Shown one piece after another: positions 2,133 to 54,248 of a stretch of 64,000 bases of DNA; within the stretch, counting starts at the first letter, position 1; each line of letters begins with the position of its first letter. This stretch comes from Thermoplasmata archaeon (GTDB lineage Archaea; Thermoplasmatota; Thermoplasmata; Lutacidiplasmatales; SKW197), in contig JAVZCK010000012.1 in NCBI GenBank assembly GCA_038874435.1, forward strand, positions 1 through 64,000, written 5' to 3'. Made by a program: the position numbers and the translations under genes. The notes below the pieces were generated by a model. That model worked only from the letters and a program-made list of their open reading frames with translations, did no database searches and had not been told where the DNA came from.

Positions 2133-3052
2133 ATTCTGGCTTCCACTTTTCCACTGCTGAGGAGCGCCACCCTGCTATCTCCTTTCTCTCCAATTAGTTT
2201 ATAGCTAGTTTCTTTTTCAAGTGCAGTGGCAAATTCCATTATCTCTTTGTGGGAAGGCATGCACTCAATTGTCAATCTCTGTCTGGAACCACCTACAAAT
2301 ACATAGGCCTTTGCCTCTATAAAATCTGGTTCTGCAATCATGTCTAGTTTTGCATAATCCTCTGGCCAACCTAAGTTCCAGTTCTTTACGAGTGTGTGCC
2401 TCACCACCTTCCTGCAATCAAGCGAGGGAAAAAGTTTCAGTGTTTCCTGAATCCTTGCCCAGTTCTCTTTTTTCAGCGGGAAACATGCTTTTCTGTACAC
2501 CTCCTCGTTTGGAGCGGCAACAGTGACATAAAGCTGGGTTGGAAGAGAATCAAGGGCGTCTAATGCATCTGGCATTGTCCCATTTGTAACAAGAAATGTT
2601 GTGAATCCTCGTCTCTTAAATCCCTCTATTAAATCACTTAGATATGGGTAGATTGTTGGCTCCCCAGCAAGCGAAATTGCTACCTGGTTTGGATGCTGTG
2701 CCTCCTTCCATAAATCAAGATTGCACCTTGCGTCTCCTTTGAAACCTGTCAACAGTTTTCGCTGGACTCTGATTGCTTCCTCTATGATTTTTTCTGGTTC
2801 TTCTGGTTTCTCAATTTCCTGCTTTGTGAACTGCTGATTCCGCCAGCAAAAAACACACATTTGAGTGCAGGAATAGACAGCTGGCGTCATCTGAAGACAT
2901 CTATGGGTGCTTATTCCATAAAATGCTTCCTTGTAGCACACCCTTCCGTAAAAAAGTTTCTGTCGCATCCAGTGGCACAGTTTCACTGCCGAGTGCTCTC
3001 CCACAAGCCCATATCCCTGCTTTTTCAGGAGTTGCGCATGCTCTAGTTCCAT
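2120..3052 (-). CDS. taw1: tRNA 4-demethylwyosine synthase Taw1 (TYW1), radical SAM
   Basis: This enzyme condenses N1-methylguanosine-37 of tRNA-Phe with pyruvate-derived carbons to form the tricyclic imG-14, using S-adenosylmethionine and two iron-sulfur clusters. The radical SAM motif CTQMCVFC is at about residues 62-69, followed by WRNQQ. Earlier cysteines at about 27, 39 and 52 fit the second cluster. The SLAGEPTIYP and FLVTNGTMPD segments are typical TYW1 signatures. At 310 aa with no flavodoxin domain it is the archaeal form. It lies 4 bases after the membrane hydrolase gene upstream, so the two are probably co-transcribed. Confidence 0.95.
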   Translation of the reverse strand: MELEHAQLLKKQGYGLVGEHSAVKLCHWMRQKLFYGRVCYKEAFYGISTHRCLQMTPAVYSCTQMCVFCWRNQQFTKQEIEKPEEPEKIIEEAIRVQRKLLTGFKGDARCNLDLWKEAQHPNQVAISLAGEPTIYPYLSDLIEGFKRRGFTTFLVTNGTMPDALDALDSLPTQLYVTVAAPNEEVYRKACFPLKKENWARIQETLKLFPSLDCRKVVRHTLVKNWNLGWPEDYAKLDMIAEPDFIEAKAYVFVGGSRQRLTIECMPSHKEIMEFATALEKETSYKLIGEKGDSRVALLSSGKVEARIQNL

Positions 3053-3056
3053 ATTT

Positions 3057-4169
3057 TCACATTTTGACTTCTTCGCTTATCTCGCTAGAAAGTTCCACGG
3101 CCCGCTCCCTGTCCTTTTCCTCTGGACTCTTCAGTTCCTCCTTGTACTTCCCTGTAAGGAAATAAACTGCAAGATAAATCAGGGTCAATGGAACTACGAT
3201 GAAGTAAACTACATAGTTTATTGTTCCAACCCAGTATGTCGCAGTTGGATTGCCCGCAGTTATGCCTGAAAACATATCCACCCATGGCATGTGAAGTTTC
3301 GGAGAAGGAGAGAACGCATCCAGGTTCCAGATAATTATCATGAGTAGCGAGTAGTTTGTGAAGAAGTTAGGAAGAGCATCTGAGGAACGGCAGAGTCCCA
3401 GACCTTTAATCCGCTTCTTTGTAAAAGGAGGGAACAGATTACTGCCCATCAGTCCGAAAAAGTCCACTATCACATGACCCCAGAATCCACCTGTAATAAT
3501 ACCGAATACTACTAACGACATCATTGAGAAACCATAGATTGCAGAAAAGATAATTGCACCTATTGCTCCAAAAAGCAGCCCGAGGGATAAACTGTGCGTC
3601 CAGCGTCTGTGCCAGGGAATGAATTCAAGCCGGACCTTGTCCCCATCTCTTCGCATCTCAAAGTCTGGGCCCGAAAGAATCGAAACCTTTGACTCCTCAT
3701 CGTAGAAGTAGTCAAGGTCTGGCTTGAAGCTTGCGGTGGCAATTCTTGGTGGGTCTGGCTCTGAGCCAGGCAGAGGGGGCTCATCAGCCCAGGTAATCAA
3801 GCCACCAATTCTTGCAGTAATTGTTTTGTTTTTCTTGTCAATTTTTATGAAGTACTGTCTCCAGTATGCTTGGTCATGCTTGATTGTATGAAATTTTACA
3901 TTTACTGGCTTCCCTGTCTCCCATGCTTCATCGATTGCTTTAGCCATTGTTTCTGCTATGGGCTTAGGGTCAAGGTCTGGGTAGGGATCGACCTCGTAGG
4001 TGTGTTTCTCCAGATACCTTGTCAGACGGAAATCCAGGGTGTCTGGAAGGATTCCAAAGATTCCACCCAGCAGAATTATGAGCGATTTCTCAAAAAGCGC
4101 AGCTTCAACCGCGGACGCAAAGCAGGTGGCAACAGCAATGCCAGTAAGGAAGTGTGTAATTCCCTTCAT
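3057..4169 (-). CDS. Membrane-bound metal-dependent hydrolase, DUF457/YdjM-like
   Basis: The protein starts MKGITHFLTG with a hydrophobic stretch and ILPDTLDFR, the pattern of the DUF457/YdjM membrane hydrolase family, whose conserved H and D residues are thought to bind metal. A soluble insert of about 130 residues (55-185) interrupts the usual fold. The core resumes with HRRWTHSLSLGLL and GFWGHVIVDFFG, which supply further family histidines and aspartates, and ends with two more membrane helices. At 370 aa it is longer than typical because of the insert. The substrate is unknown. Confidence 0.75.
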   Translation of the reverse strand: MKGITHFLTGIAVATCFASAVEAALFEKSLIILLGGIFGILPDTLDFRLTRYLEKHTYEVDPYPDLDPKPIAETMAKAIDEAWETGKPVNVKFHTIKHDQAYWRQYFIKIDKKNKTITARIGGLITWADEPPLPGSEPDPPRIATASFKPDLDYFYDEESKVSILSGPDFEMRRDGDKVRLEFIPWHRRWTHSLSLGLLFGAIGAIIFSAIYGFSMMSLVVFGIITGGFWGHVIVDFFGLMGSNLFPPFTKKRIKGLGLCRSSDALPNFFTNYSLLMIIIWNLDAFSPSPKLHMPWVDMFSGITAGNPTATYWVGTINYVVYFIVVPLTLIYLAVYFLTGKYKEELKSPEEKDRERAVELSSEISEEVKM

Positions 4170-4267
4170 AACCCCACATTGTCAAAGGAGGTATTAAATG
4201 TTATTCCCCTCCCATTACCATACTTTTATTTACTTCCATGTACTTCCCCAGTAATGAGGCGATTCCC

Positions 4268-5185
4268 ATGATGATGAAAAATAGGATTACTGCTCTGTTG
4301 CTGGTTGGAATGCTGTGCGTGATTGCGATTGCGAATATGGGTGTAAAAGCAGATGTAAAAACGCCAGTGCTAGAAAGCACCACAAGTAGAACTGTGCTTG
4401 CAGAATGCTTTACTTCCACCACGTGCACATACTGTCCCAGTGCCGAAGGTGCACTCAACAGACTCGCGAATGAGATGAACAGAACGCAACTGGCGATAAT
4501 TGAGTGGCATGTGGGTGATTCTTATGAAGCCACAGATGGCTCATGCTCGGCTAGAGCAAACTATTATGGTGTACCAGGTACTCCAACAACATTCTTTGAT
4601 GGTGTTAATGTTACTGTTGGAGGTTCTACAAACGCAAACGACGCTGCAACATACAACGACTACAAAAGCAAGATAAACTTCAGACTGGGTGTGGCATCAC
4701 CGATATCCATTTCCGTTTCCGGCTACCTCAATGGAAATTATGGCATTGTAAATGCTGAGGTAACTGTGCTTGACCCACTGCCTGCCTCCACAAATGGCAC
4801 CTATGTGCACTTCGTGCTCTGCGAGGACAAAAACAAAAGTGTGGTGAGTGGCGGGAAAACTTACTGGCTTAGATTTGATGCGGTTAAGAATCTTGGCGCT
4901 GATTTGCTTAATGTGGGTGTAGGCCAGACCCTTACATTACAGAAAAACTTTACAATTGATTCAACTTGGGAAGAAGACCGACTTTGGGTTGTAGTGTTTG
5001 TCCAGAACCATGACAGAACCTATCACAGCGGTACATACACATACTACCTTTCTGAAGTTTACCAGAGTTCAACCCTGAATCTCTCCGCACAGCCAGTTCC
5101 AGAACATAGCCCAGTATTCTTTGTTCCACTCTCAGCTGCAGGAATTCTAGCTGCAGCAGTCATAAGACGCAAATACTTTGAGTGA
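4268..5185 (+). CDS. Secreted thioredoxin-fold protein, Omp28-like, C-terminally anchored
   Basis: After MMMKNRITALLLVGMLCVIA, a signal peptide, comes AECFTSTTCTYCPSAEGAL. This TxxxCxxCP motif is that of Omp28-like and other extracytoplasmic thioredoxin-fold proteins. A cis-proline-like GVPGTPTTFF loop follows about 65 residues later. The C-terminal half is beta-rich, and the protein ends with a membrane helix and RRKYFE, like archaeal surface anchors. I took the ATG at 4268, the first of three in tandem, because the signal peptide starts there. It is translationally coupled to the next gene (TGATG). Its place in a redox cluster suggests a surface disulfide or metal-thiol role. Confidence 0.75.
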   Translation: MMMKNRITALLLVGMLCVIAIANMGVKADVKTPVLESTTSRTVLAECFTSTTCTYCPSAEGALNRLANEMNRTQLAIIEWHVGDSYEATDGSCSARANYYGVPGTPTTFFDGVNVTVGGSTNANDAATYNDYKSKINFRLGVASPISISVSGYLNGNYGIVNAEVTVLDPLPASTNGTYVHFVLCEDKNKSVVSGGKTYWLRFDAVKNLGADLLNVGVGQTLTLQKNFTIDSTWEEDRLWVVVFVQNHDRTYHSGTYTYYLSEVYQSSTLNLSAQPVPEHSPVFFVPLSAAGILAAAVIRRKYFE

Positions 5186-6825
5186 TGGGAAAGATGATTA
5201 GAAAGAACCTCTTACCCCCTTCATTATTTTGCTTTTTCCTCTTCTTTCTGCTGGTAGAGGTGAGTGGTGCCGGTGCAATACAACAGAACAACTCTCTTCA
5301 GGTAACAGTGTCATGGGAACCAGAAGTCCCATTACCTAATGCTACAATAAAGTTTACTGCAAACTGCGAAAATGTCACTATGCTTAAAATCCAATTCTGC
5401 CTGAACGGGTTATGTGGGCTCCCAGTTGAGATGCAGAAACAAGACAACAACACATTTGAGTATGTTTTTGTCCCAGGCAATGGCAATCCCCCAACGAGCG
5501 ATGGAGACAATCTCTCCTTTGAAATTCTGCTGGGCAGTGATGTGCTCTACTCAAATTGGATAATTATTAGGGAAAATGCCAAGCCAGTTATTCAAAACAT
5601 CTGGTTTGAACCTGAACATCCGAAACTCGGAGAGAATCTTACAATTTATGCAAATGTATCAGACGATTACGGAGTGAAAAATGTGGAGTGTAACATCTCG
5701 CATGAAAATTGGTTCGGGACACTGGAACTGACTGAACATGGAGGCAATTTCTCTGCAAATTTCATGCCACTTTATTCAGGCCAGCATCTAATTACAATTT
5801 TTGCTATCGACAACTCGAATCAAACGACATCAAAAACCTCTGCAGTTTTTGTGTTTCCACCAGAACAAACAGACAATATCTCTCCTCAGCTTGTGGATGC
5901 ATTTAGTGTGAGGACAAACGAGAGCACTATGACGCTCAAGGTCTATCTTACAGATAACTCCGGCATAGCTGAGGCAGGTGTGTTTATTAATCAAACCTTT
6001 TATCCACTTGAACGCACATCCCAGGGCTTTTTCACAGCTGAAGTCCCGCTCTCGGAAACAGTCCAAATTTATGCAAGAGACCCTTACAACAACACTCTCA
6101 ACATAACTCATCATCTGAAAGTGTATTCCGAATCTAATCTACCAGACCAAAATCAACCCTCTTCAGTCAACGGTATGGTTTTAGGTATGACCCTGTTCAT
6201 AGGAATTCTAGCAGGAGTTGCAATTGCCCTGTTCATAAAAAATCTGAAAGGACTTAACCTCCTTATTCTTTTCCTCCTTGTTTTTGCTATTGTTCTGGCA
6301 GCCCAGCAAGGTCTTGTGGAAAAAAGTGTGGATGCCGGTGGTAACATCTACAACGGAAATACCTGCTGGAGTTGTCTTGCCCTTCAGCCCAAATCGCTCA
6401 CAGTTTCATGGCTGGAAATCTACCCGAATGGTAGTGTAGTAAACCATCCCAATTGGATCCTGGACTTACTTGCAGAAGGAAAACCGCTTCTGATTTATGT
6501 GCATCAGGTTCCATGCACCGGCTGTGAGATACAGTGGAGAGACATGGTAAGCCATGGTATTATAACTCAAGATGGTAAAATTTCAGGCAAATTTGAAGGA
6601 AAGGTTTTATTCAAAGTGCTAGATGTGACTATGGGTTCTGAAACGAGAAATCAAGGGATGGAAGTGCTGAGAATCTACACGCTCGGTTCTGCCTTAGGGA
6701 CACCCACAACCGTGTGCCTTGTAAAAACAGGCGATAAGGTGCTTTGGTGGTCCAAGGCGGGCGTGGTTTATTCCCAGGAACTCAATACAGTGCTGGACGA
6801 AGCCATTCATATGAGCCATAGGTGA
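5185..6825 (+). CDS. Surface protein: Ig-like domains, TM pair, thioredoxin-like C-terminus
   Basis: A signal peptide (about residues 5-30) is followed by Ig-like or bacterial-Ig repeats rich in N-glycosylation sequons (about 35-325). Two membrane helices at about 330-370 (MVLGMTLFIGILAGVAIALF and LLILFLLVFAIVLAA) follow. The last 160 residues contain NTCWSCLAL and VPCTGCEIQW, CxxC motifs in a thioredoxin-like setting (PLLIYVHQVPCTGC), and a cis-proline-type LGTPTTVCLV loop. The topology places the thioredoxin domain outside the cell. The start ATG overlaps the upstream stop by one base (TGATG). A GTG one codon earlier is also possible. Confidence 0.7.
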   Translation: MGKMIRKNLLPPSLFCFFLFFLLVEVSGAGAIQQNNSLQVTVSWEPEVPLPNATIKFTANCENVTMLKIQFCLNGLCGLPVEMQKQDNNTFEYVFVPGNGNPPTSDGDNLSFEILLGSDVLYSNWIIIRENAKPVIQNIWFEPEHPKLGENLTIYANVSDDYGVKNVECNISHENWFGTLELTEHGGNFSANFMPLYSGQHLITIFAIDNSNQTTSKTSAVFVFPPEQTDNISPQLVDAFSVRTNESTMTLKVYLTDNSGIAEAGVFINQTFYPLERTSQGFFTAEVPLSETVQIYARDPYNNTLNITHHLKVYSESNLPDQNQPSSVNGMVLGMTLFIGILAGVAIALFIKNLKGLNLLILFLLVFAIVLAAQQGLVEKSVDAGGNIYNGNTCWSCLALQPKSLTVSWLEIYPNGSVVNHPNWILDLLAEGKPLLIYVHQVPCTGCEIQWRDMVSHGIITQDGKISGKFEGKVLFKVLDVTMGSETRNQGMEVLRIYTLGSALGTPTTVCLVKTGDKVLWWSKAGVVYSQELNTVLDEAIHMSHR

Positions 6826-6829
6826 GAGA

Positions 6830-7615
6830 TTGAAATTACGCACTTACAGAATCACCCTCCAGTTTCTGGTTTTTGTGGTGCTTAACCTTGGCTTGGTAAT
6901 TGGTTTTTATGGCTTTCCCCTACCATACTTCTACTGCCATGCCTGTCCCACCGCAGTGGGACTTTGCCCAGTGGGTGCTGAACAGTATGCTGTGATTGTG
7001 AATCCAATCCTACTCCTCTACTTTTTTGGTGCGGTCTTCCTGATTGCACTTATTTTCGGCAGAGCCACATGTGGATGGGGTTGTCCTGTTGGCACACTCC
7101 AGGACCTCTTTGCACTGAAAACCAGACATAGAGAATTGAGGGACAGTGTTCCAAGGTATGCGAAGTTTATTATTTTTGGTTTTACACTCCTTCTCTCTTA
7201 CATTTTCATGGAGAAGGTGTTTACAGATATTTGCCCAATCGGTTTCCTCACTGCAACAATCCCCACCCTTATCCTCATGCCAGGTTATGTGGAGCCGATG
7301 TCCCCATTCTTTGAAATGAAGATTGCACTCACCGTTGTCTTCTTTATTCTAATTTACTTTGTGGCAAGGGGCTGGTGCAGATACATCTGTCCTCTTGGTG
7401 CCCAGCTTTCACTATTCAACAGGTTTTCAATCATCAGTATCAAACTGAACAGGGAAAAATGTGTCAAGTGCAGCGCATGTCAAAAACGCTGTCCCATGGG
7501 TATTGACCCCCAGAGCCAGACAGATAGTTTTGAGTGCATCAGGTGTGGCAGGTGTATTGAAGCCTGTCAGAAAAAAGCACTCAGCTATTCATTGAGGTGG
7601 AGAAATGCTCATTGA
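6830..7615 (+). CDS. Membrane polyferredoxin, NapH/CcoG-like
   Basis: This is a four- to six-helix membrane protein with conserved cysteine motifs in the loops (CGWGCPVGTL at about 81-90 and CRYICPLGAQ at about 183-192), the NapH/NosR/CcoG signature. Two C-terminal [4Fe-4S] motifs follow (CVKCSACQKRCP and CIRCGRCIEACQKKA). Relatives pass electrons between a quinol or ferredoxin pool and extracytoplasmic reductases. The start is TTG at 6830, preceded by GGTGAGA. It lies 4 bases after the thioredoxin-like gene and overlaps the next gene by 11 bp. I infer that it feeds electrons across the membrane to its neighbours. Confidence 0.85.
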   Translation: MKLRTYRITLQFLVFVVLNLGLVIGFYGFPLPYFYCHACPTAVGLCPVGAEQYAVIVNPILLLYFFGAVFLIALIFGRATCGWGCPVGTLQDLFALKTRHRELRDSVPRYAKFIIFGFTLLLSYIFMEKVFTDICPIGFLTATIPTLILMPGYVEPMSPFFEMKIALTVVFFILIYFVARGWCRYICPLGAQLSLFNRFSIISIKLNREKCVKCSACQKRCPMGIDPQSQTDSFECIRCGRCIEACQKKALSYSLRWRNAH

Positions 7616-8132
7616 GTTCTATCTCTACGGACTCATTCTTGGCTTCTCAGTATGTTCAGCATGTACCCTGCCAGTGTTTCTACTTTCTGGAGGTGGAAGG
7701 AAAGCACTCGCATACATTTTTGGAACCAGATTTCTGCTTCTTTTGCTTGCCCTTCCTTTGATTGCCTTCCTGCCTTATCTCAGGATTGCTGGCAGCATTG
7801 TGATGCTCGGTGTTGGCATCTATACCTTCATGATGGCTCTGGAGGGAAACTGTTCTGTTTGTAGCAAAAGTGCCATTGCAGCCACATTTCTGTGTTTCAT
7901 TGAGGGCTCTCCTGCAGTATTTCTTGCTGGTGGCTACCTGACAGGGATTCTCAATGCTCTTCTTTTCACAATTGGAACTGTTACCCCACTCATATTAGTT
8001 TCAGCTGCAAAAATAAAGATTGGAAACAATTTCAAGCTCATAATGGCTGCCCTTGTGATTGTTATTGCGGTTTTTTACCTATACGAAAGCTTATTTGTTG
8101 TTTCTCACTCTCTGTATCTGCGAGATATCTAA
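7605..8132 (+). CDS. Small membrane protein with cysteine pairs, possibly CcdA/DsbD-like
   Basis: The protein has about five to six hydrophobic helices in 175 aa. A CSACTLPVFL motif lies in the first helix (residues 17-20) and a CSVC pair at about 83-86. The arrangement recalls the CcdA/DsbD membrane thiol carrier, whose first helix has a cysteine followed by proline, but it also resembles TauE-like exporters. No certain family call can be made. It overlaps the polyferredoxin gene and ends the cluster. Confidence 0.55.
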   Translation: MLIEFYLYGLILGFSVCSACTLPVFLLSGGGRKALAYIFGTRFLLLLLALPLIAFLPYLRIAGSIVMLGVGIYTFMMALEGNCSVCSKSAIAATFLCFIEGSPAVFLAGGYLTGILNALLFTIGTVTPLILVSAAKIKIGNNFKLIMAALVIVIAVFYLYESLFVVSHSLYLRDI

Positions 8133-40207: not shown

Positions 40208-40287
40208 CTAGATTATGAATTTCAAATTCTTGCCTCACGACTGCTGTAACTCCATTGGAACTATGTTTTAAGTCAAAACACGATATT
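40208..40287. other. Trailer end of the CRISPR array, short intergenic
   Basis: This 80-bp AT-rich gap lies between the VWA gene and the distal end of the array. It is on the trailer side, because the crRNA is inferred to be read leftward. No gene is seen. Confidence 0.5.
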
Positions 40288-43200
40288 TTTCAATCCTACC
40301 TTAGTCCAGTTTGAACAGACGAAGATGTTGCTGTTGGCAACAGAACAGTAACATTTCAATCCTACCTTAGTCCAGTTTGAACGCTATTGCGAAATTTACC
40401 CCCATTTTTGCATTTTGATTTCAATCCTACCTTAGTCCAGTTTGAACTGGAATTATTTTAACTCATGTTCAAATTATAGCAGTTATTTCAATCCTACCTT
40501 AGTCCAGTTTGAACGATATAATTTTAATAGAAACAAATAATGGTTATCATGATTTCAATCCTACCTTAGTCCAGTTTGAACTAGGGCTGGAAGATTTCTT
40601 AAAAGATTTAGATTAAAGGGATTTCAATCCTACCTTAGTCCAGTTTGAACTTAAGATAGAGCAGTTATATCCCAAATTTCTTTATTAATTTCAATCCTAC
40701 CTTAGTCCAGTTTGAACATGAAATCCTCTCTTGTCCAATAACTGTAAGTGTCATTTCAATCCTACCTTAGTCCAGTTTGAACCCATTCCTTCATAATTGT
40801 ATAATAGTGTCTTGAATAAATTTCAATCCTACCTTAGTCCAGTTTGAACATGAATATGGTTTAAATAAAATACCTAAACTAATATTATTTCAATCCTACC
40901 TTAGTCCAGTTTGAACTAGTGAAAATACAGCAGAAGCAACAACTTTATTAAAATTTCAATCCTACCTTAGTCCAGTTTGAACAAAAATGATGGAGAAAAA
41001 AGGATATAAAAAAGGAATATTTCAATCCTACCTTAGTCCAGTTTGAACCATATAACCTGCTTAAGGTATTTGAGGATGTTGATAGATTTCAATCCTACCT
41101 TAGTCCAGTTTGAACACAAAGGAGATTTAAAGGAAGGTGAATAAATGCCCGTATTTCAATCCTACCTTAGTCCAGTTTGAACATCTCACATCTCAATCCA
41201 TTATCAAATTTATCACTTCATTTCAATCCTACCTTAGTCCAGTTTGAACTAATCCGATAAAATGGGAACTATTAATGGACATATATAATTTCAATCCTAC
41301 CTTAGTCCAGTTTGAACACTTCAGAAAAAATATTGAATTTTCATATAATCCAAATTTCAATCCTACCTTAGTCCAGTTTGAACACAAATTGAAAATATTC
41401 CTACAGAAAGCGATATTATTATTTCAATCCTACCTTAGTCCAGTTTGAACTAAGTTTACTTCCAACATAAATAATTATTTCTTTTTATTTCAATCCTACC
41501 TTAGTCCAGTTTGAACTAATCCATAGTATTTTAAATTTGAATAGTTTTTATACATTTCAATCCTACCTTAGTCCAGTTTGAACAAAAAGAAGATTTGAAA
41601 AAAACGGAGAAGGAAATGGAATTTCAATCCTACCTTAGTCCAGTTTGAACCTGGCCTGGCAAGCATACCAGGCTGGGACTGATTTATTTCAATCCTACCT
41701 TAGTCCAGTTTGAACCATTCAGGTTTAAAAACAAATTGTTATTTGGTTATAGATTTCAATCCTACCTTAGTCCAGTTTGAACTATCTGCAACATCAAAGC
41801 GGGCGGTGTGGGCATAACATATTTCAATCCTACCTTAGTCCAGTTTGAACTGGGAGAGGCAACAAGTTATTTTTTCTGTTTTTGATAGATTTCAATCCTA
41901 CCTTAGTCCAGTTTGAACTGAGAAGAGCGAGAAATGCGGAAATGCTGGTTAAGATATTTCAATCCTACCTTAGTCCAGTTTGAACGCAGGCGATTTTGAA
42001 ATCACAGTTTAAGACACTTTAATTTCAATCCTACCTTAGTCCAGTTTGAACCATCGCCGTGTTTGCAGAACTGGGCTGGACGCCAAGATTTCAATCCTAC
42101 CTTAGTCCAGTTTGAACTCGCAAACCTGTCCCGCTCAGTTACTTCACACTCCCATTTCAATCCTACCTTAGTCCAGTTTGAACCACACGCATCTTCTGAT
42201 TCAGTTCTGTCAAATTGGCATTTCAATCCTACCTTAGTCCAGTTTGAACTCTCCATTTTTTCACCTCTCAATATGTCCACAGCTTCTATTTCAATCCTAC
42301 CTTAGTCCAGTTTGAACATGGCTGTGGTTGCAAAATCATAGCAAATTTCAGAAATTTCAATCCTACCTTAGTCCAGTTTGAACCAAGGATATAGATTTCA
42401 GGACAATCTATGAGGAAATATTTCAATCCTACCTTAGTCCAGTTTGAACAGAGAATCAGGTTACTACCGAACAAAAAGGTGCTGGTATTTCAATCCTACC
42501 TTAGTCCAGTTTGAACTGGATATTTGCGGAGGGAGAAGCAGGATGTGTTGAAATTTCAATCCTACCTTAGTCCAGTTTGAACAGGCAAGGTGGGCGTTTG
42601 AAAAACTCAAAGAATCTTTATTTCAATCCTACCTTAGTCCAGTTTGAACAACAGCTCCTGATTTCTTTCCAGTCAATCCGTGCTACATTTCAATCCTACC
42701 TTAGTCCAGTTTGAACGTAGATTGACTCTACAGGTATATCCACAGAAAATCTTATTTCAATCCTACCTTAGTCCAGTTTGAACTATTCACCAAAACTCAT
42801 TCTGTTTTTGTTAATATAATTTCAATCCTACCTTAGTCCAGTTTGAACACCACAATGGCTGCCAAAACCTGAAGGTTTTGTCTAATTTCAATCCTACCTT
42901 AGTCCAGTTTGAACGATTTTGCTCAAGAAAGTGCATATACGATTTTACAGGATTTCAATCCTACCTTAGTCCAGTTTGAACGGATTGAAGTAATACTCCA
43001 CAATCGCAACACATCCGCACTTATTTCAATCCTACCTTAGTCCAGTTTGAACTATGCTATTATTAGGGAGATGATAGAAAAAGGTATATTTCAATCCTAC
43101 CTTAGTCCAGTTTGAACGAGAGTTTTGCTTTTGGTGTTGTTTATGAGGGAGAAAAATTTCAATCCTACCTTAGTCCAGTTTGAACCAAAAGATAGATGCG

Positions 43201-45993
43201 AATTTTGATAAGGTAAGCGATATTTCAATCCTACCTTAGTCCAGTTTGAACTATAGTGAAGATGGTATCTGGGGATATTGGAATTTTAAATTTCAATCCT
43301 ACCTTAGTCCAGTTTGAACGATTTAATTCTTTATCGGGAGGAGATAGAACAGGATTATTTCAATCCTACCTTAGTCCAGTTTGAACGAGGTTGCTGAAGA
43401 AGATGTGAGAGTAATGGATTTGCTATTTCAATCCTACCTTAGTCCAGTTTGAACTTCTCAATTCGTGCAAACTAAATTTTTCCTCGTCTGATTTCAATCC
43501 TACCTTAGTCCAGTTTGAACTTTTGTTTGAATTTGCACAAACTCATTACCGCATAACTATTTCAATCCTACCTTAGTCCAGTTTGAACCCTGGGAGTGGC
43601 CTGGTGGACGCATACCTGTCCACCATTTCAATCCTACCTTAGTCCAGTTTGAACTTGAACGGGATTTCTTGCATTTTTTCTTGATTTACTATTTCAATCC
43701 TACCTTAGTCCAGTTTGAACCCTGTCCTATGGAATGGCCTCCGTAAAGCCCTACTGTTCTATTTCAATCCTACCTTAGTCCAGTTTGAACTTTGCAGATT
43801 TGTGGTTCAAATCTGACCCGAGATTTGTATTTCAATCCTACCTTAGTCCAGTTTGAACTTGAGATGAAATGGTATGAGTGGGATAAGAAAAACATATTTC
43901 AATCCTACCTTAGTCCAGTTTGAACATGCGGTTTATGTGTGGTGGAGGAGGGGCACGATTATATTTCAATCCTACCTTAGTCCAGTTTGAACGGTATTGA
44001 TGCGGCTATTGAGCATATCAGTCGTATCATTTCAATCCTACCTTAGTCCAGTTTGAACTATAAACAATAATATCATTAATCCCGTAAAAAATACATTTCA
44101 ATCCTACCTTAGTCCAGTTTGAACTATTGGTAATTCTTTTCCTCTCATTTCTATTTTTGTGTTATTTCAATCCTACCTTAGTCCAGTTTGAACTTTAAAT
44201 GGTGATGATAGGGTATTACCCCAAGCACATTTCAATCCTACCTTAGTCCAGTTTGAACACATTTTTGAGTATTTTTTTGCAAACAAAAATACTATATTTC
44301 AATCCTACCTTAGTCCAGTTTGAACTTGAAATCGTGGCTAATCCTCCTTGCAATGTAGTATTATTTCAATCCTACCTTAGTCCAGTTTGAACGCAAATCC
44401 TCATTTCAAAACATGCAGGGGGTTCACAAATTTCAATCCTACCTTAGTCCAGTTTGAACACGGTGCGGATTTAAGCCCAAACAAAACCATTTGCTCCAAT
44501 TTCAATCCTACCTTAGTCCAGTTTGAACCTTACAGACATGTTTTACTCCTTAATTTATTAGCATATTTCAATCCTACCTTAGTCCAGTTTGAACCATGCA
44601 TTACCAACACAGCATTGTAGCCAGTCGCACTATTTCAATCCTACCTTAGTCCAGTTTGAACTATGAAAAGGTATTTAATATATTCCAGTAAAATTTACAT
44701 TTCAATCCTACCTTAGTCCAGTTTGAACAAACACATCAGCACCAGATACAGCATTTTCCGATGCATTTCAATCCTACCTTAGTCCAGTTTGAACTAAAAA
44801 GTGCGGTAGTATGATGCATTTGGTTAACAGTATTTCAATCCTACCTTAGTCCAGTTTGAACATAGTTTGTAATGTTTAACATTTATGTTTAAGTTTGATT
44901 TCAATCCTACCTTAGTCCAGTTTGAACTTCTGCAATTCCACTATGCTTTTCACTATTTGCGTTCATTTCAATCCTACCTTAGTCCAGTTTGAACATGCTC
45001 CAGCATCAACAAACTATTGGATAAATGCATATTTCAATCCTACCTTAGTCCAGTTTGAACGTATTTCCGTGAGGGAACTGTCCCTTCCAGCACAAAATTT
45101 CAATCCTACCTTAGTCCAGTTTGAACGGCTAACATCAGATGCATAAGCATTCACAACACTGCTATTTCAATCCTACCTTAGTCCAGTTTGAACATGTAGT
45201 ATTAGAAGTTGAGTTGGTTGTTTGCCCAAATTTCAATCCTACCTTAGTCCAGTTTGAACATTAGCATCTCTGCTATCATGTCTAATTCCGCCTGTATTTC
45301 AATCCTACCTTAGTCCAGTTTGAACAATATGCGTTAATGTAATTGCGTTTGTGTATGATAGATTTCAATCCTACCTTAGTCCAGTTTGAACCAGGCGGAG
45401 GATAGGTTGCACAGGATTGGGCAAGCTCATTTCAATCCTACCTTAGTCCAGTTTGAACTACTGGGATAGTGAGTTAACGGATAGCGAGAATGACTATTTC
45501 AATCCTACCTTAGTCCAGTTTGAACTAATTTCATTTCAATCCACCCCCCTGGCAAAATCCACATTTCAATCCTACCTTAGTCCAGTTTGAACTGGCGAGC
45601 ATTACATTGTTTGATGACAAGGCGACATATTTCAATCCTACCTTAGTCCAGTTTGAACTCTTAGAAATCGCTAATCCAATACTTCCAAGTATCATATTTC
45701 AATCCTACCTTAGTCCAGTTTGAACAGAAATGAAAGAATACATTAGGGCAATGAGAAATGCGTATTTCAATCCTACCTTAGTCCAGTTTGAACCCGCATC
45801 GCATAATGGCGTATAACCCAGCAAAAAAAGATTTCAATCCTACCTTAGTCCAGTTTGAACCAGGACAATCTATGAGGAAATAGAGAGGTATTATAAATTT
45901 CAATCCTACCTTAGTCCAGTTTGAACGTTTGTATGATAGGTTTCAGCCAGTTAGTGTGTATATATTTCAATCCTACCTTAGTCCAGTTTGAAC
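40288..45993 (-). CRISPR. CRISPR array, 86 repeats of 30 bp and 85 spacers
   Basis: The repeat on the plus strand begins ATTTCAATCC and ends CAGTTTGAAC, 30 bp. I counted 86 copies by hand, with spacers of about 35-41 bp. Only the first copy (40288) differs, T for A at its first base. On the minus strand the repeat ends GATTGAAAT, the type I 3' end that leaves an 8-nt ATTGAAAT-like crRNA handle. The altered terminal repeat lies at the left end, as expected at the old, leader-distal end. Both facts put the leader on the right, and crRNA is transcribed leftward. The copies I read are otherwise uniform. Confidence 0.98.
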
Positions 45994-47907: not shown

Positions 47908-48987
47908 CTACCACCATATAACAAACGGTTCATACGGTTTCAAGCTCAAAAATTCCTTGCAAAGTTTCAGACACTCAAGGTATATCAAGCGTTCGTAAGA
48001 CACATTTCTTCCAAGCTCTCTATGTTTTATCGTTGTCTTAAGCCGTTCATCAAAATCTCTAACAAATTTTTCTTTACCAGATTTATTAAGCAGGCATCCA
48101 TTCAATTCTTTCACAAAATCGTTTTCTGTAATCACATCCTTGTTCACAAGCTTAAAAATTGTTCTATCTACCAGAAACGGTTTGAAAATCTCTGAGATAT
48201 CCAAAGAGAGAGAAAATCTTCGCTCTGAAGGTTCATGAAGAAAAGATATTGTTTGATCCAGTTGCGTATGGTATATTGCATTTATCGTCACTCCATACAA
48301 GAGGGAGTTGCCAAAACTGATCATTGCATTGATTGGATTCTCTGGTGGGTGTTTTGTTCTACCCTCAAACTGAAATGTCTCCTTCAGAATTTTAGAAAAT
48401 GTGCCATAATAGATGTTCCTGATTGTTCCCTCTATTGCCATCAATTCACTCACATCATTGTACTGGTCTAAATTCGCGATATGATTTTTTATCGTAATAA
48501 TCTCCTCGTTCAGATTCTTACCCTCGTTCTGGTAATACTCCAGATTTCGCAGAATGTTTTTTGCAGCACCTTCGACAAATTTTCTTGCGAGTTTTAAACG
48601 CTTCATTCTATCTAGATAGTATGCTGCCTGTCTTATGTGCATCTCGCCAGAAAGCAAACTTTCATGCGGGTACAGTGTAGATTCATAATGTCCGTAATAG
48701 CCAAAGAAATGCACTGGAATTTTCTGCTTTGCCAGAAATGAGATTACTCCAGATGTTATTGACACCCTGCCAATTCCAAAAATTGAGTTGATCTGTTCAA
48801 TTGGTAAAATTCTTCTCTCATACTCTGGCTTTTCAGACAAATTCTCGGTTTCTACCTCTACTTCCTCTCCATCCACTTCTGCAGAAAATGGCTGTGGCTG
48901 GCTTTCATCCTTTGCAAACACAAAGTACACTGTGTTCTCCTTCCGAAGCAGTTTTCCATTTCTCAAGATGTAATAGTTTACTTTCAT
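47908..48987 (-). CDS. cas1: CRISPR integrase Cas1
   Basis: This is the integration nuclease. The expected catalytic segments are visible: LMAIEGTIRNIYYGTF (first Glu), QLDQTISFLHEPSERRFSLS, then LDISEIFKPFLVDR (His and Asp/Glu). The N-terminal beta-sandwich and the DRMKRLKLARKFVEGAAKNI helical segment fit Cas1. I chose the ATG at 48987, which begins MKVNYYILRNGKLL, because the longer frame overlaps cas4. The resulting 359 aa is normal. Confidence 0.97.
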   Translation of the reverse strand: MKVNYYILRNGKLLRKENTVYFVFAKDESQPQPFSAEVDGEEVEVETENLSEKPEYERRILPIEQINSIFGIGRVSITSGVISFLAKQKIPVHFFGYYGHYESTLYPHESLLSGEMHIRQAAYYLDRMKRLKLARKFVEGAAKNILRNLEYYQNEGKNLNEEIITIKNHIANLDQYNDVSELMAIEGTIRNIYYGTFSKILKETFQFEGRTKHPPENPINAMISFGNSLLYGVTINAIYHTQLDQTISFLHEPSERRFSLSLDISEIFKPFLVDRTIFKLVNKDVITENDFVKELNGCLLNKSGKEKFVRDFDERLKTTIKHRELGRNVSYERLIYLECLKLCKEFLSLKPYEPFVIWW

Positions 48988-48991
48988 TTTC

Positions 48992-49558
48992 TCACACCCA
49001 GCAGAATTCGTAATAGGCACAGGACTTGCAATAGGGTTTGTAAACGGGCTTTGGAGATTCTGGTAAAGAGATTATCTTATTAATCTCTTCCAAAATTCTC
49101 AACATTTCAGATTCTTTCTCAGCAGTCAAATTTACTTCTGTCCTCTTCCGCTCACTTGGATACGCTACGATGCCCTTAACTTTCAAAACTTTCTTTATAT
49201 TTTTCAGATACCAGAGATAATACAGAACTTGATAGATGTGGGCTTCTTCAAACTTGCTTGATTTCTTTATATCTACCACAACCAAACCACCAGAACTTTT
49301 GACAAAATCTAACGAAATCTTATCATCTATAAGTAAATTTTTTGTTTTGATATTCTTGAAACTTTCTTTTTCAAGTATCTTACCAGCAATAACTAAATCA
49401 GATTCTTGTTCATATGTAATATAATGAGAAAAAAGCCAGAGCTGGGTTTTGCAATGAAAATAGTAGTTTACCTTTACTCCACCTACTAAAATCTCAGGGT
49501 CTATTTCTATGGTTTCGTCAGAGGATTCCGTAGAATTGCTTTGCCCCTGCAACACCAT
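48992..49558 (-). CDS. cas4: CRISPR-associated exonuclease Cas4
   Basis: This RecB-type nuclease with an iron-sulfur cluster trims pre-spacers and helps select the PAM. Cysteines C36 (YFHCKTQLW) and C177, C180, C186 (CKSCAYYEFC) are the cluster ligands. The VVVDIKKSSKFEEAHIYQVL segment has the nuclease motif II/III residues and QVLYYLWYL motif. The length of 188 aa is typical. The first 41 bp overlap the upstream gene. Confidence 0.95.
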   Translation of the reverse strand: MVLQGQSNSTESSDETIEIDPEILVGGVKVNYYFHCKTQLWLFSHYITYEQESDLVIAGKILEKESFKNIKTKNLLIDDKISLDFVKSSGGLVVVDIKKSSKFEEAHIYQVLYYLWYLKNIKKVLKVKGIVAYPSERKRTEVNLTAEKESEMLRILEEINKIISLPESPKPVYKPYCKSCAYYEFCWV

Positions 49559-50537
49559 AAATACCTCTATGCTTCTTCAGCTCTGTGTTGCACTTTATTT
49601 CTATAATCTGTGAAAGAAGCTCCCCATTAATACGGTGATATCTGAGGAGATAATACACCAACATCTCCCTTTTTTTGGTGGCCAATTCTCTGAGTTGTTG
49701 GTCAGAGATGTTTACAATTGAATTCAAAAATTCAACTGTAGTGTTTTCTGGATTTAACCACTTTTTAATTAGATTTATAGATTGAGGGAACACATGATAC
49801 ATCCCTTTTGTTTCTCTCCCAAATATTACTAATGTCGTATTTTCAGACCACCCAAAATCCGCTCCAAATTTTTCAGAAATTATTCTTTCCCATGGTTCAA
49901 CATTGGTTTCACCTTCATATTTACGCCAATCCTCCAATCCTTTAACTGCCCAGAACTGGAGAAGTACTAGTGTGCTGAAAAACGGCTGCGATGCAGGATT
50001 GAACCTGATTTTAAGTCTCTCCATTATTGGTTTGAAATCCAGGCCTTTCCTTCCCATTATCACCGTAGATGTTATTAGCGTATTCCGCAACCATTTTCTG
50101 CCAGAATCGCCGATATTATCCATATTAACGATATAGCTGCCGAATTTGACCCCCGTATATATTAAGTACAGAACTCGCCAGAGCTCCTCCTCTTCTTCAA
50201 CACCTTCTCCGATCATATTCAAATTTGACTCTTTAATCATAGTGGGCCAAATAAATGACTTGGCTTCTTCATTTATAGATTGTTCAACAATAACTTCCAG
50301 AAATTCCATAATTTTATTTCTAACCATTTCACTGTTGTTTTCTTGTTTATATTTATCAATATCGTTTTTTATTTTCCATCTCTGTCCCGCATACCCTCTA
50401 TCTGTCTCTTTAAAGGGCACAAGGTTAGGGAATATATCCCAAATTCCCATTATGTACTCTGTGTCCACATTGTAGTTTCCATCTACATCTTTCTCAAAAA
50501 TAAACTCTCTAAGTTTTTCTTTCCACATTTCTTTCAC
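49518..50537 (-). CDS. Candidate Cas8a-type large subunit, 339 aa
   Basis: I do not recognise a definite family. The protein is soluble, mainly helical, with a KKREMLVYYLLRYHRIN segment and a C-terminal HRGIYGVAGAKQFYGIL tail. By position it sits between cas3 and cas4 in a type I operon whose order (Csa5-like, cas7, cas5, cas3, this gene) matches type I-A, where Cas8a2/Csa4 of similar length follows cas3. The call is based on synteny and length. An alternative is an operon-specific accessory protein. It overlaps cas3 by 4 bp and cas4 by 41 bp. Confidence 0.5.
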   Translation of the reverse strand: MKEMWKEKLREFIFEKDVDGNYNVDTEYIMGIWDIFPNLVPFKETDRGYAGQRWKIKNDIDKYKQENNSEMVRNKIMEFLEVIVEQSINEEAKSFIWPTMIKESNLNMIGEGVEEEEELWRVLYLIYTGVKFGSYIVNMDNIGDSGRKWLRNTLITSTVIMGRKGLDFKPIMERLKIRFNPASQPFFSTLVLLQFWAVKGLEDWRKYEGETNVEPWERIISEKFGADFGWSENTTLVIFGRETKGMYHVFPQSINLIKKWLNPENTTVEFLNSIVNISDQQLRELATKKREMLVYYLLRYHRINGELLSQIIEIKCNTELKKHRGIYGVAGAKQFYGIL

Positions 50538-52675
50538 CCCAGGACTGTGTTTAGCTCTTCATTTCTTATAAAACCATACCTTTCGTGGTAAACAAAATTC
50601 CCTGCTTTATTAACGAGTGGCAAACCTCCGTATCTTCTATCTACACATCCTTTCACAGAATATATTGGCACCTGAACAGCATACCCCTTCAGTTGTGAGA
50701 CAACAGATAACTTTTCGTCTTCCTCTTCGTATCTTTTTATCAATCTTTCAATTCTACCCATCAAAGCTTCCCCTTCTTCGGTCTCAGAGAAAATGAGACC
50801 CGTGTATGGGATTATCAAAGTTGTGAAACTCTCTCGATAGGACAATAGTTTCATTGCCTCTTCCTCTGATATATCCAAGCTGAAAAAATATCCAGCCCTA
50901 TTTGTGTTTTCAAACCCAGTTTCAAGCTTCAATTCATCTCCTGCCTTATTGAGCTTTTCTAACATCTCCTCTTTTGAGTATACCTCATTCAGCTTATTAA
51001 ACAACTCAAGTTCAGTTTTTATCTCCCGCAATTCCTCTAAAAATTTTTTAGAAATTTCTAATTCATCTCGTTCGTAGGGATAATATTTTTCATTTTTTAC
51101 TTCGGGATTGTAAATAAACACATTCACTTCTCTTGTCGTTTTACCTCTCCTGTTGACTCGCCCGAATCTTTGAATAAGAGATGGCAACGGTGCCAGCTCT
51201 GTGAACATCACATCATATGAAATATCCAAAGATACTTCACAGACCTGTGTAGCGACCAATATATGTGGAGTTGTCGCTAACTCCTCAATTTTTTCCTCAA
51301 TTTCTCTTCTAGTGTTGTATATAAACCTCCCATGAAGGAGAAGAGAACATACTCCTTCGTATTTTTCTATTTCACGCTTAATTTTCACGGCACTTTCAAC
51401 TGTGTTGCAGATAACCAATACTTTCTTCTTTTTACCTGCTTCTACAACTTTGGCCACTTCCTCTGCAAGCATGCACTCCCTCACTTCAAATTTAACCCTA
51501 CATAGGTCAGCACACAAACTAATTCTATCTACAAAATCTTTCTCATTTGTTATTATGCCCATTTTTTCTCGAATTGCCTCTCTCAACCCGTCTGGAAAAG
51601 TGGCAGACATAAATAAAATATTAAGATTGTAAACATCGATGAATTTTTTAAAAATATGAAGTAATAAAAAGAGCATTTTATCATTTAGTAGATGCACTTC
51701 ATCTATAATAACTGCAGTATTCCTGAACATTACACGTTTCATATGATAACTACCTGTCTGAAGAAATGAAAGCAGAACTTGGTCAATAGAGGTTATCATA
51801 TAAGGTTGGAGAAAATGCTGGCTTTCAAAAATTCGCCAATCAACATAGCTCTTTTCTAGTCTTTCATCTGCAATCTCAACATCATAGAAGTAGAAATACT
51901 TCCCAACATCTGAATCAAATAAGTTGCTCAATTTATTATGAAAACTATTTATTGCAGTGATAGTTGGAAAAATAAAGAACACTTTTTTTATATCTTTATT
52001 AATAATATATAAAGGAGATGCACTAGTTTTTCCCCAACCAGTAGGTGCTCTCAGAAAACCGATTCTACCTATATTCTTGATATCCTCTTGCTCCGCCTTC
52101 CTATATGGGTCGTTAAGAAAACTATTCAAATTTGCTTCATTTAAATCGGGCTTTCTGGGTATATATCCAGATTTAGAAGATGCAGATAGACAATCTGCAA
52201 TCTTGAAGAGGCCATACGCATCAGCGAGTTCCACTCTTTTTTTGAAATCAAAAGTGTTAAAGAACCAACTCCTCAATTTTCCTTCTGGCCCCAACGACTC
52301 AATCAATTCTCGGTATCGCTCAAATCCTGTAGTTACTCTCAAGTTTCCATGGTGTTTTAGAATAAGGTATGCTACCAAGCAGTCATATTCACCAAGATCT
52401 TGTTTTTCTTCGGATTTCTTCTTGAGATAATATTGTACAGAAAAATCAGCATGCGTCGTCTCCCCGTTGAAATTCCAAGCTGGATTGAGCTTACCCCAAT
52501 CATGGTATTCTATTACTTCCGAAATCATCTCTTCTATCTTTTTGTCGTTCAATCCGTAAAAAGACGAGAATTTCCTGTATATTCGTCGTACTTCATCTAC
52601 ATGGCAAAAAAGACATTTGTTTGGATGACTTTCTTTCGCATAGGGAGATTCCCATTCTATCCTTATGTCCTCCAT
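50534..52675 (-). CDS. cas3: CRISPR helicase-nuclease Cas3 (HD plus helicase)
   Basis: The HD nuclease domain is at the N-terminus (EYHDWGKLNPAWN with H58-D59, and later KHHGN at about 107-111). The SF2 helicase has Walker A APTGWGKT (about 210-217), DEVH-type motif II (VIIDEVHLLND), MSATFPDGL (motif III) and QRFGRVNRRGKT (motif VI). This single chain unwinds and degrades target DNA after Cascade recruitment. A C21-C24 pair near the start is extra. Type I-A systems often split Cas3 into two genes. Here it is fused. Confidence 0.96.
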   Translation of the reverse strand: MEDIRIEWESPYAKESHPNKCLFCHVDEVRRIYRKFSSFYGLNDKKIEEMISEVIEYHDWGKLNPAWNFNGETTHADFSVQYYLKKKSEEKQDLGEYDCLVAYLILKHHGNLRVTTGFERYRELIESLGPEGKLRSWFFNTFDFKKRVELADAYGLFKIADCLSASSKSGYIPRKPDLNEANLNSFLNDPYRKAEQEDIKNIGRIGFLRAPTGWGKTSASPLYIINKDIKKVFFIFPTITAINSFHNKLSNLFDSDVGKYFYFYDVEIADERLEKSYVDWRIFESQHFLQPYMITSIDQVLLSFLQTGSYHMKRVMFRNTAVIIDEVHLLNDKMLFLLLHIFKKFIDVYNLNILFMSATFPDGLREAIREKMGIITNEKDFVDRISLCADLCRVKFEVRECMLAEEVAKVVEAGKKKKVLVICNTVESAVKIKREIEKYEGVCSLLLHGRFIYNTRREIEEKIEELATTPHILVATQVCEVSLDISYDVMFTELAPLPSLIQRFGRVNRRGKTTREVNVFIYNPEVKNEKYYPYERDELEISKKFLEELREIKTELELFNKLNEVYSKEEMLEKLNKAGDELKLETGFENTNRAGYFFSLDISEEEAMKLLSYRESFTTLIIPYTGLIFSETEEGEALMGRIERLIKRYEEEDEKLSVVSQLKGYAVQVPIYSVKGCVDRRYGGLPLVNKAGNFVYHERYGFIRNEELNTVLG

Positions 52676-53376
52676 TCCCCCACCAATACAAATTTATGGA
52701 GTGGATAGAGCGCAATGTACTTACCGCTTACTTCAACCGTATTTATTTCATTCATACGCTCCTTTTTCAGTTTGACACACCCATTAAGAATAAATGTGAA
52801 ATTTTTATCAATATCTGCCAAATTATGGTTTACGGGCAATATCTGGAAAGAGGTACCCGATGTTATCTCGCCAATCCACATGGTTGGGATATAATTTGAG
52901 ACGAACTCACTATTCTTAATTTCAAAATTGCCAACAATTTCCCAATCTTTTACGAAAAAGTCATTTTGACCACCAAATGGGAGATAACATATCGCTTTAC
53001 TGAGCTGATTGCCTATTTCCATAATCTTTGATTCATCACCCCCAATTGCTATTAAGTATGTGGGCTCGTTAAGAATTGAAATGGTTTCTACGCCCTTACC
53101 CCTATTCTGCTGTTTAAGTTTACTGAAGAGCATATAGGTAGCATTCTCCCTGTTTTCGGCAATTTTTTTAGAAGAATCTACACATGCACCGAAAACACAA
53201 TCTGTAAAGGTGCGAGCAGCATTTCTTCTTGAGAGCCCAAGCATACTTCCAAACATTCCAGCTACAGATGTTGGCAGCGGAATGGGATAGCTCAGCCTGG
53301 AAGTTTTAGTATAGTGCACTTTAAAGAACGCTTCGAAAAAGGTAATCCTAATTACCAGAGCTTTCATATTCTTCAT
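52663..53376 (-). CDS. cas5: CRISPR Cascade subunit Cas5
   Basis: The protein begins with KALVIRITFFEAFFKVHYTK, then SYPIPLPTSVAGMFGSMLGL, the Cas5 N-terminal RRM-like motif with the conserved proline/threonine and G loop. It caps the 5' handle of the crRNA in Cascade. The length of 237 aa is typical of Cas5a/Cas5t. It overlaps cas7 by 4 bp and cas3 by 13 bp. Confidence 0.92.
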   Translation of the reverse strand: MKNMKALVIRITFFEAFFKVHYTKTSRLSYPIPLPTSVAGMFGSMLGLSRRNAARTFTDCVFGACVDSSKKIAENRENATYMLFSKLKQQNRGKGVETISILNEPTYLIAIGGDESKIMEIGNQLSKAICYLPFGGQNDFFVKDWEIVGNFEIKNSEFVSNYIPTMWIGEITSGTSFQILPVNHNLADIDKNFTFILNGCVKLKKERMNEINTVEVSGKYIALYPLHKFVLVGEWRT

Positions 53377-54248
53377 AGAAATTTAGTGATTTCGTCAACT
53401 GCCTTGCCGACACTAGCTTTTTCTATTTTTTGTGGTAAATCACCTATGCTGCCCTTGTAATCAATAAACAGTATTTTACTGGCTTTATTTACAATCTCTT
53501 CTCTGTTCGTAATCATTTTTAGGTTTTCTAAAGATATTCTATTATTTTCAAAATCATAATCGAGGTGTTGATAGATAGGTAATGGCCCATTTTCTGAGAG
53601 CACCACTAGTGATGCTATGTACTCTGGGATATTCAATGAATTTGTACGTCGTGGGAGTACGTATGCTGGCGCAAGCAAGATCTCGGCAAAATTTTTTATT
53701 CTTTTTGCCCGCTCTCCACCATCCAACACCGAGCCATCTTCAAATTTGCCTATATAGTCATACATTATGCAATTCAATTTTCCAACAAACTCCGCAATTT
53801 CGACTTCGAAAGGAACTGGGTTATCATCTACTTTGCCTGCCCATTGTCTTGGAAACCTTGCACCAAATTCGGATTTTACTGGTGTGTCCTTTATTGCTTT
53901 GAAATAAGAAAGGGCAACTGGTGCCTGGCGTCTCTCTGCGGTTTTACCTCTACCCTTTGTTGACATGTATCCAAAAAGATCATTGTCAACATACTTCTTA
54001 GGGTCCCCTGTATCTGCTAAGCGAAGCGCCTCTGTCGCCTTCGGATCACTAATAAATGGATCTACTTCCAAACCTCGGTTTCGTAACGCATCCCGTATCG
54101 CATACTTCACGGCTCTAGCAGACACGAATGGTAGTACTTCCCCACTTGAAGAGTACATTTTCTTCAGCGTCACTCTCGTACCAATCACTTCATCGGCGTT
54201 CACATTGCCCGATATCTTTCCTAATATCGATACTTGTACGACTTTCAT
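53373..54248 (-). CDS. cas7: CRISPR Cascade backbone subunit Cas7 (DevR/Csa2/Cst2-like)
   Basis: The RRM-like start VVQVSILGKISGNVNADEVI, then GTRVTLKKMYSSSGEVLPFV, then SARAVKYAIRDALR, is the Cas7/DevR signature, with VDNDLFGYM, then a RQAPVALSYFKA segment. Multiple copies form the Cascade backbone along the crRNA. The length is 291 aa. Both Csa2 (I-A) and Cst2 (I-B) families share these segments, so subtype cannot be fixed from this gene alone. Confidence 0.94.
   Translation of the reverse strand: MKVVQVSILGKISGNVNADEVIGTRVTLKKMYSSSGEVLPFVSARAVKYAIRDALRNRGLEVDPFISDPKATEALRLADTGDPKKYVDNDLFGYMSTKGRGKTAERRQAPVALSYFKAIKDTPVKSEFGARFPRQWAGKVDDNPVPFEVEIAEFVGKLNCIMYDYIGKFEDGSVLDGGERAKRIKNFAEILLAPAYVLPRRTNSLNIPEYIASLVVLSENGPLPIYQHLDYDFENNRISLENLKMITNREEIVNKASKILFIDYKGSIGDLPQKIEKASVGKAVDEITKFL

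Follow-up and report, generated by a model that had tools for sequence, protein, structure and literature searches.

The closest described relatives of the gene cluster reported here are NapH-like systems with flavinylated outer domains, of the PceC and NosR type (PMC8238504). The cluster consists of four open reading frames (ORFs), termed P1 to P4, which lie end to end on one strand at positions 4268-8132 of a 64,000-nucleotide stretch (the window; positions 1 to 64,000 of contig 12, JAVZCK010000012.1) of a 2.16 Mb Thermoplasmata assembly (GCA_038874435.1). As in the flavinylated systems, a NapH-type iron-sulfur membrane protein is paired, or in relatives fused, with an extracytoplasmic redox domain. 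The differences are that a double-CxxC thioredoxin would here replace the flavin mononucleotide (FMN) domain, that the host is an archaeon and that the NapH-type protein carries outer cysteines; no FMN-binding domain was found in P1-P4. NapH homologues of anaerobic methanotrophic (ANME) archaea have been described as sporadic and mostly located outside suggestive gene clusters (PMC9012536). We found no description of a combination of NapH with thioredoxin, CcdA or DsbD in the open-licence literature, Thermoplasmatota included. The cluster is apparently undescribed, and an earlier note on this DNA, which knew of no system with this exact composition, is borne out to that extent.

Several better known systems resemble parts of the locus. 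DsbD/CcdA proteins are reductive and, with TlpA- or ResA-type thioredoxins, form a thiol relay across the membrane to a thioredoxin on its outer side, as the locus would; P4 resembles their DsbD_2 branch and P2 resembles archaeal CcdA partners. In contrast to them, the main link would here be a NapH-type iron-sulfur protein, and P4 has only 175 residues and lies under Pfam detection. With the ferredoxin-type proteins NapGH and MauMN the cluster has the family membership of P3 in common, but P3 stays under the curated cut-offs, possesses extra outer cysteines and lacks neighbouring nap or mau genes. Ferredoxin:thioredoxin reductase also connects iron-sulfur clusters with thioredoxin disulfides, as the present system would; however, that enzyme is soluble and unrelated in sequence, whereas here the transfer would cross a membrane. 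P1 matches the profiles of Omp28-related proteins (NF045500 and PF11551) and differs from these proteins in remaining under the cut-offs, in being archaeal and membrane-anchored, and in its linkage to NapH.

The evidence that carries our reading of the locus is the recurrent association of P3 with a thioredoxin. Orthologues of P3 were found in 11 further genomes of the class Thermoplasmata. A second class of the same phylum was covered with 12 genomes, and 10 of these contain one as well. Six genomes (G023, G109, G011, G066, G074, G102) encode NapH fused to a P2-type domain (IPCLGCLALDP...CxxC). NapH and P2-type thioredoxin genes are adjacent in the window, its sister species, G063 and G086, and seven genomes of the second class (G317, G358, G325, G331, G346, G364 and G307) have the thioredoxin gene immediately behind NapH. 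The two are thus linked in 17 of the 19 testable genomes (6 fused, 11 adjacent), from which four cases cut by contig ends (G058, G022, G343, G349) are left out. In nine genomes of the class, proteins of the P1 type are encoded alongside the pair, as a rule with an immunoglobulin-like (Ig-like)/CARDB protein between. In G063 and G086 DsbD_2 is part of the cluster and shares its strand; in G023, G066 and G011 it is convergent and lies next to the cluster or near it. Gene fusion, gene order and the presence of the DsbD_2 member vary between genomes. For comparison, no partner genes were seen beside 17 other NapH-like genes of the class within the stretches examined (about 1.5 kb of flank per side; 3 to 8 kb for four of the 17).

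P3 is a relative of NapH and not NapH proper: it matches TIGR02163 (E 1.8e-27, 96.5 bits, cut-off 213) and PRK09477 (101.7, cut-off 234) below the curated scores. Both CxxxCP motifs (C81/C85, C183/C187) and the two C-terminal 4Fe-4S motifs (C211-C246) are present and conserved. According to the charge distribution the N-terminus, the CxxxCP loops and the ferredoxin domain are located inside and the loop containing C36, C39 and C46 outside. C36 and C46 occur in all 21 aligned P3 orthologues and are absent from 15 of the 17 other NapH-like proteins. The two exceptions (G015 and G026) have a similar CQAC...C site; each is a distinct NapH-like protein (L153:7014-7913 and L154:7055-7954) with no thioredoxin neighbour within the stretch examined. 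No nap or mau genes were seen beside the P3 orthologues either; thioredoxins are found there instead. The linkage of a ferredoxin-type membrane protein with extracytoplasmic thioredoxins, the central idea of the earlier note, is therefore well supported at the level of genes by the fusions, the adjacency and the outer cysteines of this NapH subfamily. The neighbourhood search, which that note had proposed for Thermoplasmata, returned the linkage there and in the second class, and in relatives the genes largely do not occur separately. As judged from these genomes, the cluster is recurrent and widespread, a point that the earlier note had missed.

On the thioredoxin side, two CxxC motifs, the second of them missed in the earlier note, are invariant in the family of the P2 C-terminal domain, as is a proline in the place of the cis-Pro. 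The family profile finds solved thioredoxins with E = 4.5e-9, and we assign a thioredoxin fold to the domain on the basis of the CxxC and cis-proline positions in the thioredoxin profile. On its own the domain has no Pfam match, whereas its family does match, and a search of solved structures with the single domain likewise gave no match; a single-sequence AlphaFold model was of low confidence and was set aside. In relatives an Ig-like/CARDB protein and a thioredoxin are separate, and by this comparison the P2 of the window is a fusion of the Ig-like part with the thioredoxin. P1 is a clear relative of Omp28-related proteins (NF045500: E 1.9e-24, 86.8 bits, cut-off 200; PF11551: 27.4, cut-off 34.9), although the curated score is not reached.

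The four genes are closely packed, with overlaps of 4 nucleotides (nt) between P1 and P2 and 11 nt between P3 and P4. P2 and P3 are separated by a gap of 4 nt. The composition given in the earlier note, two extracytoplasmic thioredoxin-fold proteins, a NapH-like protein and a small membrane protein in tandem, stands. An alternative in-frame ATG for P1 exists at 4238, but 4268 is favoured by the signal peptide. Upstream lies a divergent YdjM-type gene, and downstream, 78 nt away, a KaiC-type gene. The family contains only one further genome, that of the sister species (G087), in which all four genes are kept in identical order with 70-79% identity. Its upstream neighbour is the same as in the window and the downstream neighbour is different. 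The preserved order beside a differing flank argues for P1-P4 being one unit kept together, and with the recurrence of the modules in two classes it shows that the arrangement is not due to chance.

P4 is hydrophobic along its whole length, with six helices predicted from hydropathy and a low-confidence model. It matches no Pfam or NCBIfam family at any useful level, PF13386 and PF02683 included, whereas five of its nine aligned relatives match one or the other of these two. Profile-profile alignment of P4 against the full archaeal DsbD_2 set gave a probability of 87%, and hhalign against the DsbD_2 subfamily gave 75% with a score of 38.8, compared to at most 24.7 for the best of 100 shuffles preserving local composition. 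When cluster members were added to the DsbD_2 profile the probability was 88.5% over 153 columns. C17 in transmembrane helix 1 (TM1), P23, C97 and E100 in TM4, G124 and P128 are invariant in the alignment (A6), and C97 is the likely conserved partner of C17. The earlier note had pointed to two cysteine pairs in this protein: the CSAC pair (C17/C20) is kept in the congener, while the loop pair C83/C86 is only half kept, C83 being lost. We file P4 as a remote, very short and divergent DsbD_2/CcdA-type protein. It does not resemble a plain exporter devoid of conserved redox cysteines, as the cysteines in TM1 and TM4 are conserved; a weak permease match (L015) was discarded, and with it the reading of P4 as a plain exporter or TauE-type permease. 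The assignment to ordinary CcdA was also rejected (hhalign score 28, best shuffle 29), as were other weak matches with stop codons or no gene context. The AlphaFold model of P4, submitted to Foldseek, was too poor for comparison with the CcdA fold and was set aside, and searches of solved structures with P4 or the DsbD_2 set gave no match. Of 250 sampled genomes of the class, own genus excluded, 8 contain both the NapH orthologue and a member of the DsbD_2 subfamily, where 0.6 would be expected (p about 1e-9); with the genomes used for profile building excluded as well, it is 4 versus 0.29 (p about 5e-5). Common descent is not accounted for in these figures, and several of the genomes are incomplete.

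Taking these observations together, we consider it probable that the locus encodes a membrane electron relay that supplies extracellular thiol/disulfide proteins with reducing power. The electrons would come from a cytoplasmic donor of low potential, in all likelihood reduced ferredoxin, and enter the two cytoplasmic [4Fe-4S] clusters of P3. From there they would pass via the CxxxCP motifs to the outer-face site C36/C46, accompanied in this genus by C39 and C135; these subfamily cysteines are the obvious candidate for the exit site. The membrane-tethered double-CxxC domain of P2, fused to NapH in relatives, would accept them at CWSC and then CTGC and hand them on to the Omp28-like P1 and to client disulfides. 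P4 might give the same thioredoxins a second entry port based on thiols, perhaps with electrons from cytoplasmic thioredoxin, or it might shuttle between NapH and thioredoxin. As P4 itself is CcdA-like, the cluster would not simply be a replacement for CcdA. The transfer from NapH to thioredoxin is the best supported step because of the fusions; we infer the order of transfer, its outward direction, ferredoxin as donor, the clients and the exact role of P4. Por and Ior, which the earlier note had named as makers of reduced ferredoxin, are indeed encoded in the window, unlinked to the cluster.

A number of observations weigh against this relay. G336 carries NapH without an adjacent thioredoxin, as does G004, in which the thioredoxin is found on another contig. 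C39 and C135 of P3 are not universal among the orthologues. The homology of P4 to DsbD_2 is remote and below what Pfam detects; against the four cluster DsbD_2 sequences alone the hhalign score is 24.7, and the relationship becomes clear only with more rows. We know of no precedent for a NapH protein performing two-electron dithiol chemistry at its outer face. No P1-type or DsbD_2 neighbour of the NapH/thioredoxin pair was seen in the second class, whose DsbD_2 genes are located elsewhere in the genome. For this reason we regard NapH and the double-CxxC thioredoxin as the presumptive core of the system, and P1 and P4 as accessory.

The fusions and the outer cysteines also fit with electrons flowing inward, as sequence alone does not fix the direction. 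P1 and P2 would then introduce disulfides into exported proteins, and P3 would move the electrons of P2 to a cytoplasmic or membrane acceptor, resembling DsbA-DsbB/VKOR with an iron-sulfur protein in place of the quinone protein. The DsbA/DsbG-like CPYC motif of some P1 relatives agrees with this, but the DsbD_2/CcdA-type partner speaks for reduction and ferredoxin-type clusters usually have a low potential, and we regard an oxidative relay as unlikely. The reductive character of the DsbD/CcdA family and the ferredoxin-type clusters of NapH lead us to favour outward flow from ferredoxin to P2 and then P1. The same gene set could instead mature one exported metalloprotein or cofactor, by insertion of copper or disulfides, without serving general thiol reduction. 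NapH-like and DsbD-type proteins accompany bacterial maturation systems, among them NapH-like CcoG and the DsbD_2 genes of oxidase assembly and the mau accessory genes, and the P1 and Ig/CARDB proteins of relatives are large and variable. We saw no recurrent gene for an oxidase, a dehydrogenase or another client in the neighbourhoods examined, and such a maturation machine seems unlikely to us.

A further question is whether P3 would draw its electrons for the thioredoxins from membrane quinol instead of ferredoxin. NapH has been described as quinol-linked (PMC9012536, PMC8238504) and P3 keeps the NapH core motifs. On the other hand, we found no MqnA/MqnD-type menaquinone gene in ten genomes with P3 orthologues, a search that did not extend to the classical Men route or to carriers other than menaquinone. 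Menaquinol is, moreover, usually a weaker reductant than thioredoxin, and we judge a quinol-fed system improbable. With respect to the ferredoxin-driven relay, a bolder form is conceivable, which we put forward as a tentative proposal: the cluster may represent a new class of transmembrane thiol reductase, in which a NapH-type protein turns one-electron iron-sulfur chemistry into dithiol chemistry at the outer C36/C46. Ferredoxin would thereby reduce an extracellular thioredoxin without cytoplasmic thioredoxin, quinone, heme or flavin, and the double-CxxC domain would be the dedicated acceptor.

Table 1. Positions of the P1-P4 genes and their predicted redox features in the window.
Feature	Position	Strand	Remark
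P1: Omp28-like thioredoxin-fold protein, signal peptide, C-terminal membrane anchor	4268..5185	+	profile matches, topology
P1 CTYC motif (C53, C56)	4424..4435	+	conserved in congener
P2: signal peptide, Ig-like (Big_7) region, two TM helices, C-terminal thioredoxin domain	5182..6825	+	start GTG
P2 C-terminal double-CxxC thioredoxin domain; NapH-fused or NapH-adjacent module in relatives	6307..6822	+	
P2 CWSC motif (C395, C398)	6364..6375	+	family motif C[LW][GS]CL
P2 CTGC motif (C445, C448)	6514..6525	+	thioredoxin active-site position
P3: NapH/MauN-like iron-sulfur membrane protein	6830..7615	+	start TTG; profile matches
P3 outer-face cysteines C36, C39, C46	6935..6967	+	C36, C46 invariant in 21 orthologues
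P3 cytoplasmic ferredoxin domain, two 4Fe-4S motifs (C211-C246)	7460..7567	+	
P4: 175-residue divergent DsbD_2/CcdA-like membrane protein	7605..8132	+	profile-profile alignment
P4 C17 in TM1	7653..7655	+	aligned with DsbD_2 TM1 cysteine
P4 C97 in TM4 (CFxE motif)	7893..7895	+	aligned with DsbD_2 TM4 cysteine

Other thiol-related loci were noticed in the same genome and its relatives. Elsewhere in its own genome the archaeon also possesses an ordinary thioredoxin-TlpA-CcdA fusion of 734 residues, immediately behind which lie a 4Fe-4S protein gene and a gene of the aldehyde ferredoxin oxidoreductase type (contig 2, L020:3328-7855); in relatives, such CcdA proteins have thioredoxin partners with homology to the P2 domain. 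Genes for an ArsR-type regulator and/or an ArsP-like permease stand beside thioredoxin and TlpA-CcdA pairs in G130, G091 and G011 (L037, L038 and L039), which suggests a metalloid-linked thiol system in Thermoplasmata. Two DsbD_2-like genes of G330 lie by a run of iron-sulfur, rubredoxin-like and HdrB-like genes (L110:1014-2150 and 3011-7264), possibly another association of iron-sulfur proteins with DsbD_2. A supposed NapH beside DsbD_2 in G318 (L111) proved to be ferredoxin-domain ATPases. In two genera of the second class a DsbD_2 gene with a C-x-x-E motif in TM4 is situated between a prepilin-peptidase-like membrane gene and a KH/metallo-beta-lactamase gene (L099:8543-9259, L107:1393-2127). 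Unrelated to redox, the window contains, at 40287-45930 and 47908-54248, an array of clustered regularly interspaced short palindromic repeats (CRISPR) with dozens of copies of the 30-nt repeat ATTTCAATCCTACCTTAGTCCAGTTTGAAC at a spacing of about 67 nt, beside a putative type I Cas set, assigned by eye, that includes Cas1-, Cas4- and Cas3-like ORFs.

How extracytoplasmic proteins are supplied with electrons in ferredoxin-based anaerobic archaea is poorly known. The cluster and its natural fusions identify the proteins concerned, their partner domain and the cysteines at which transfer is probable, which makes the question directly testable. The modular NapH family, known with cytochromes, quinol-linked reductases and flavin domains, would gain a thioredoxin-type outer partner, and P4 would add a minimal DsbD_2-like protein that family libraries miss. 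The cluster thus hints at how such microbes could power thiol chemistry outside their membrane.

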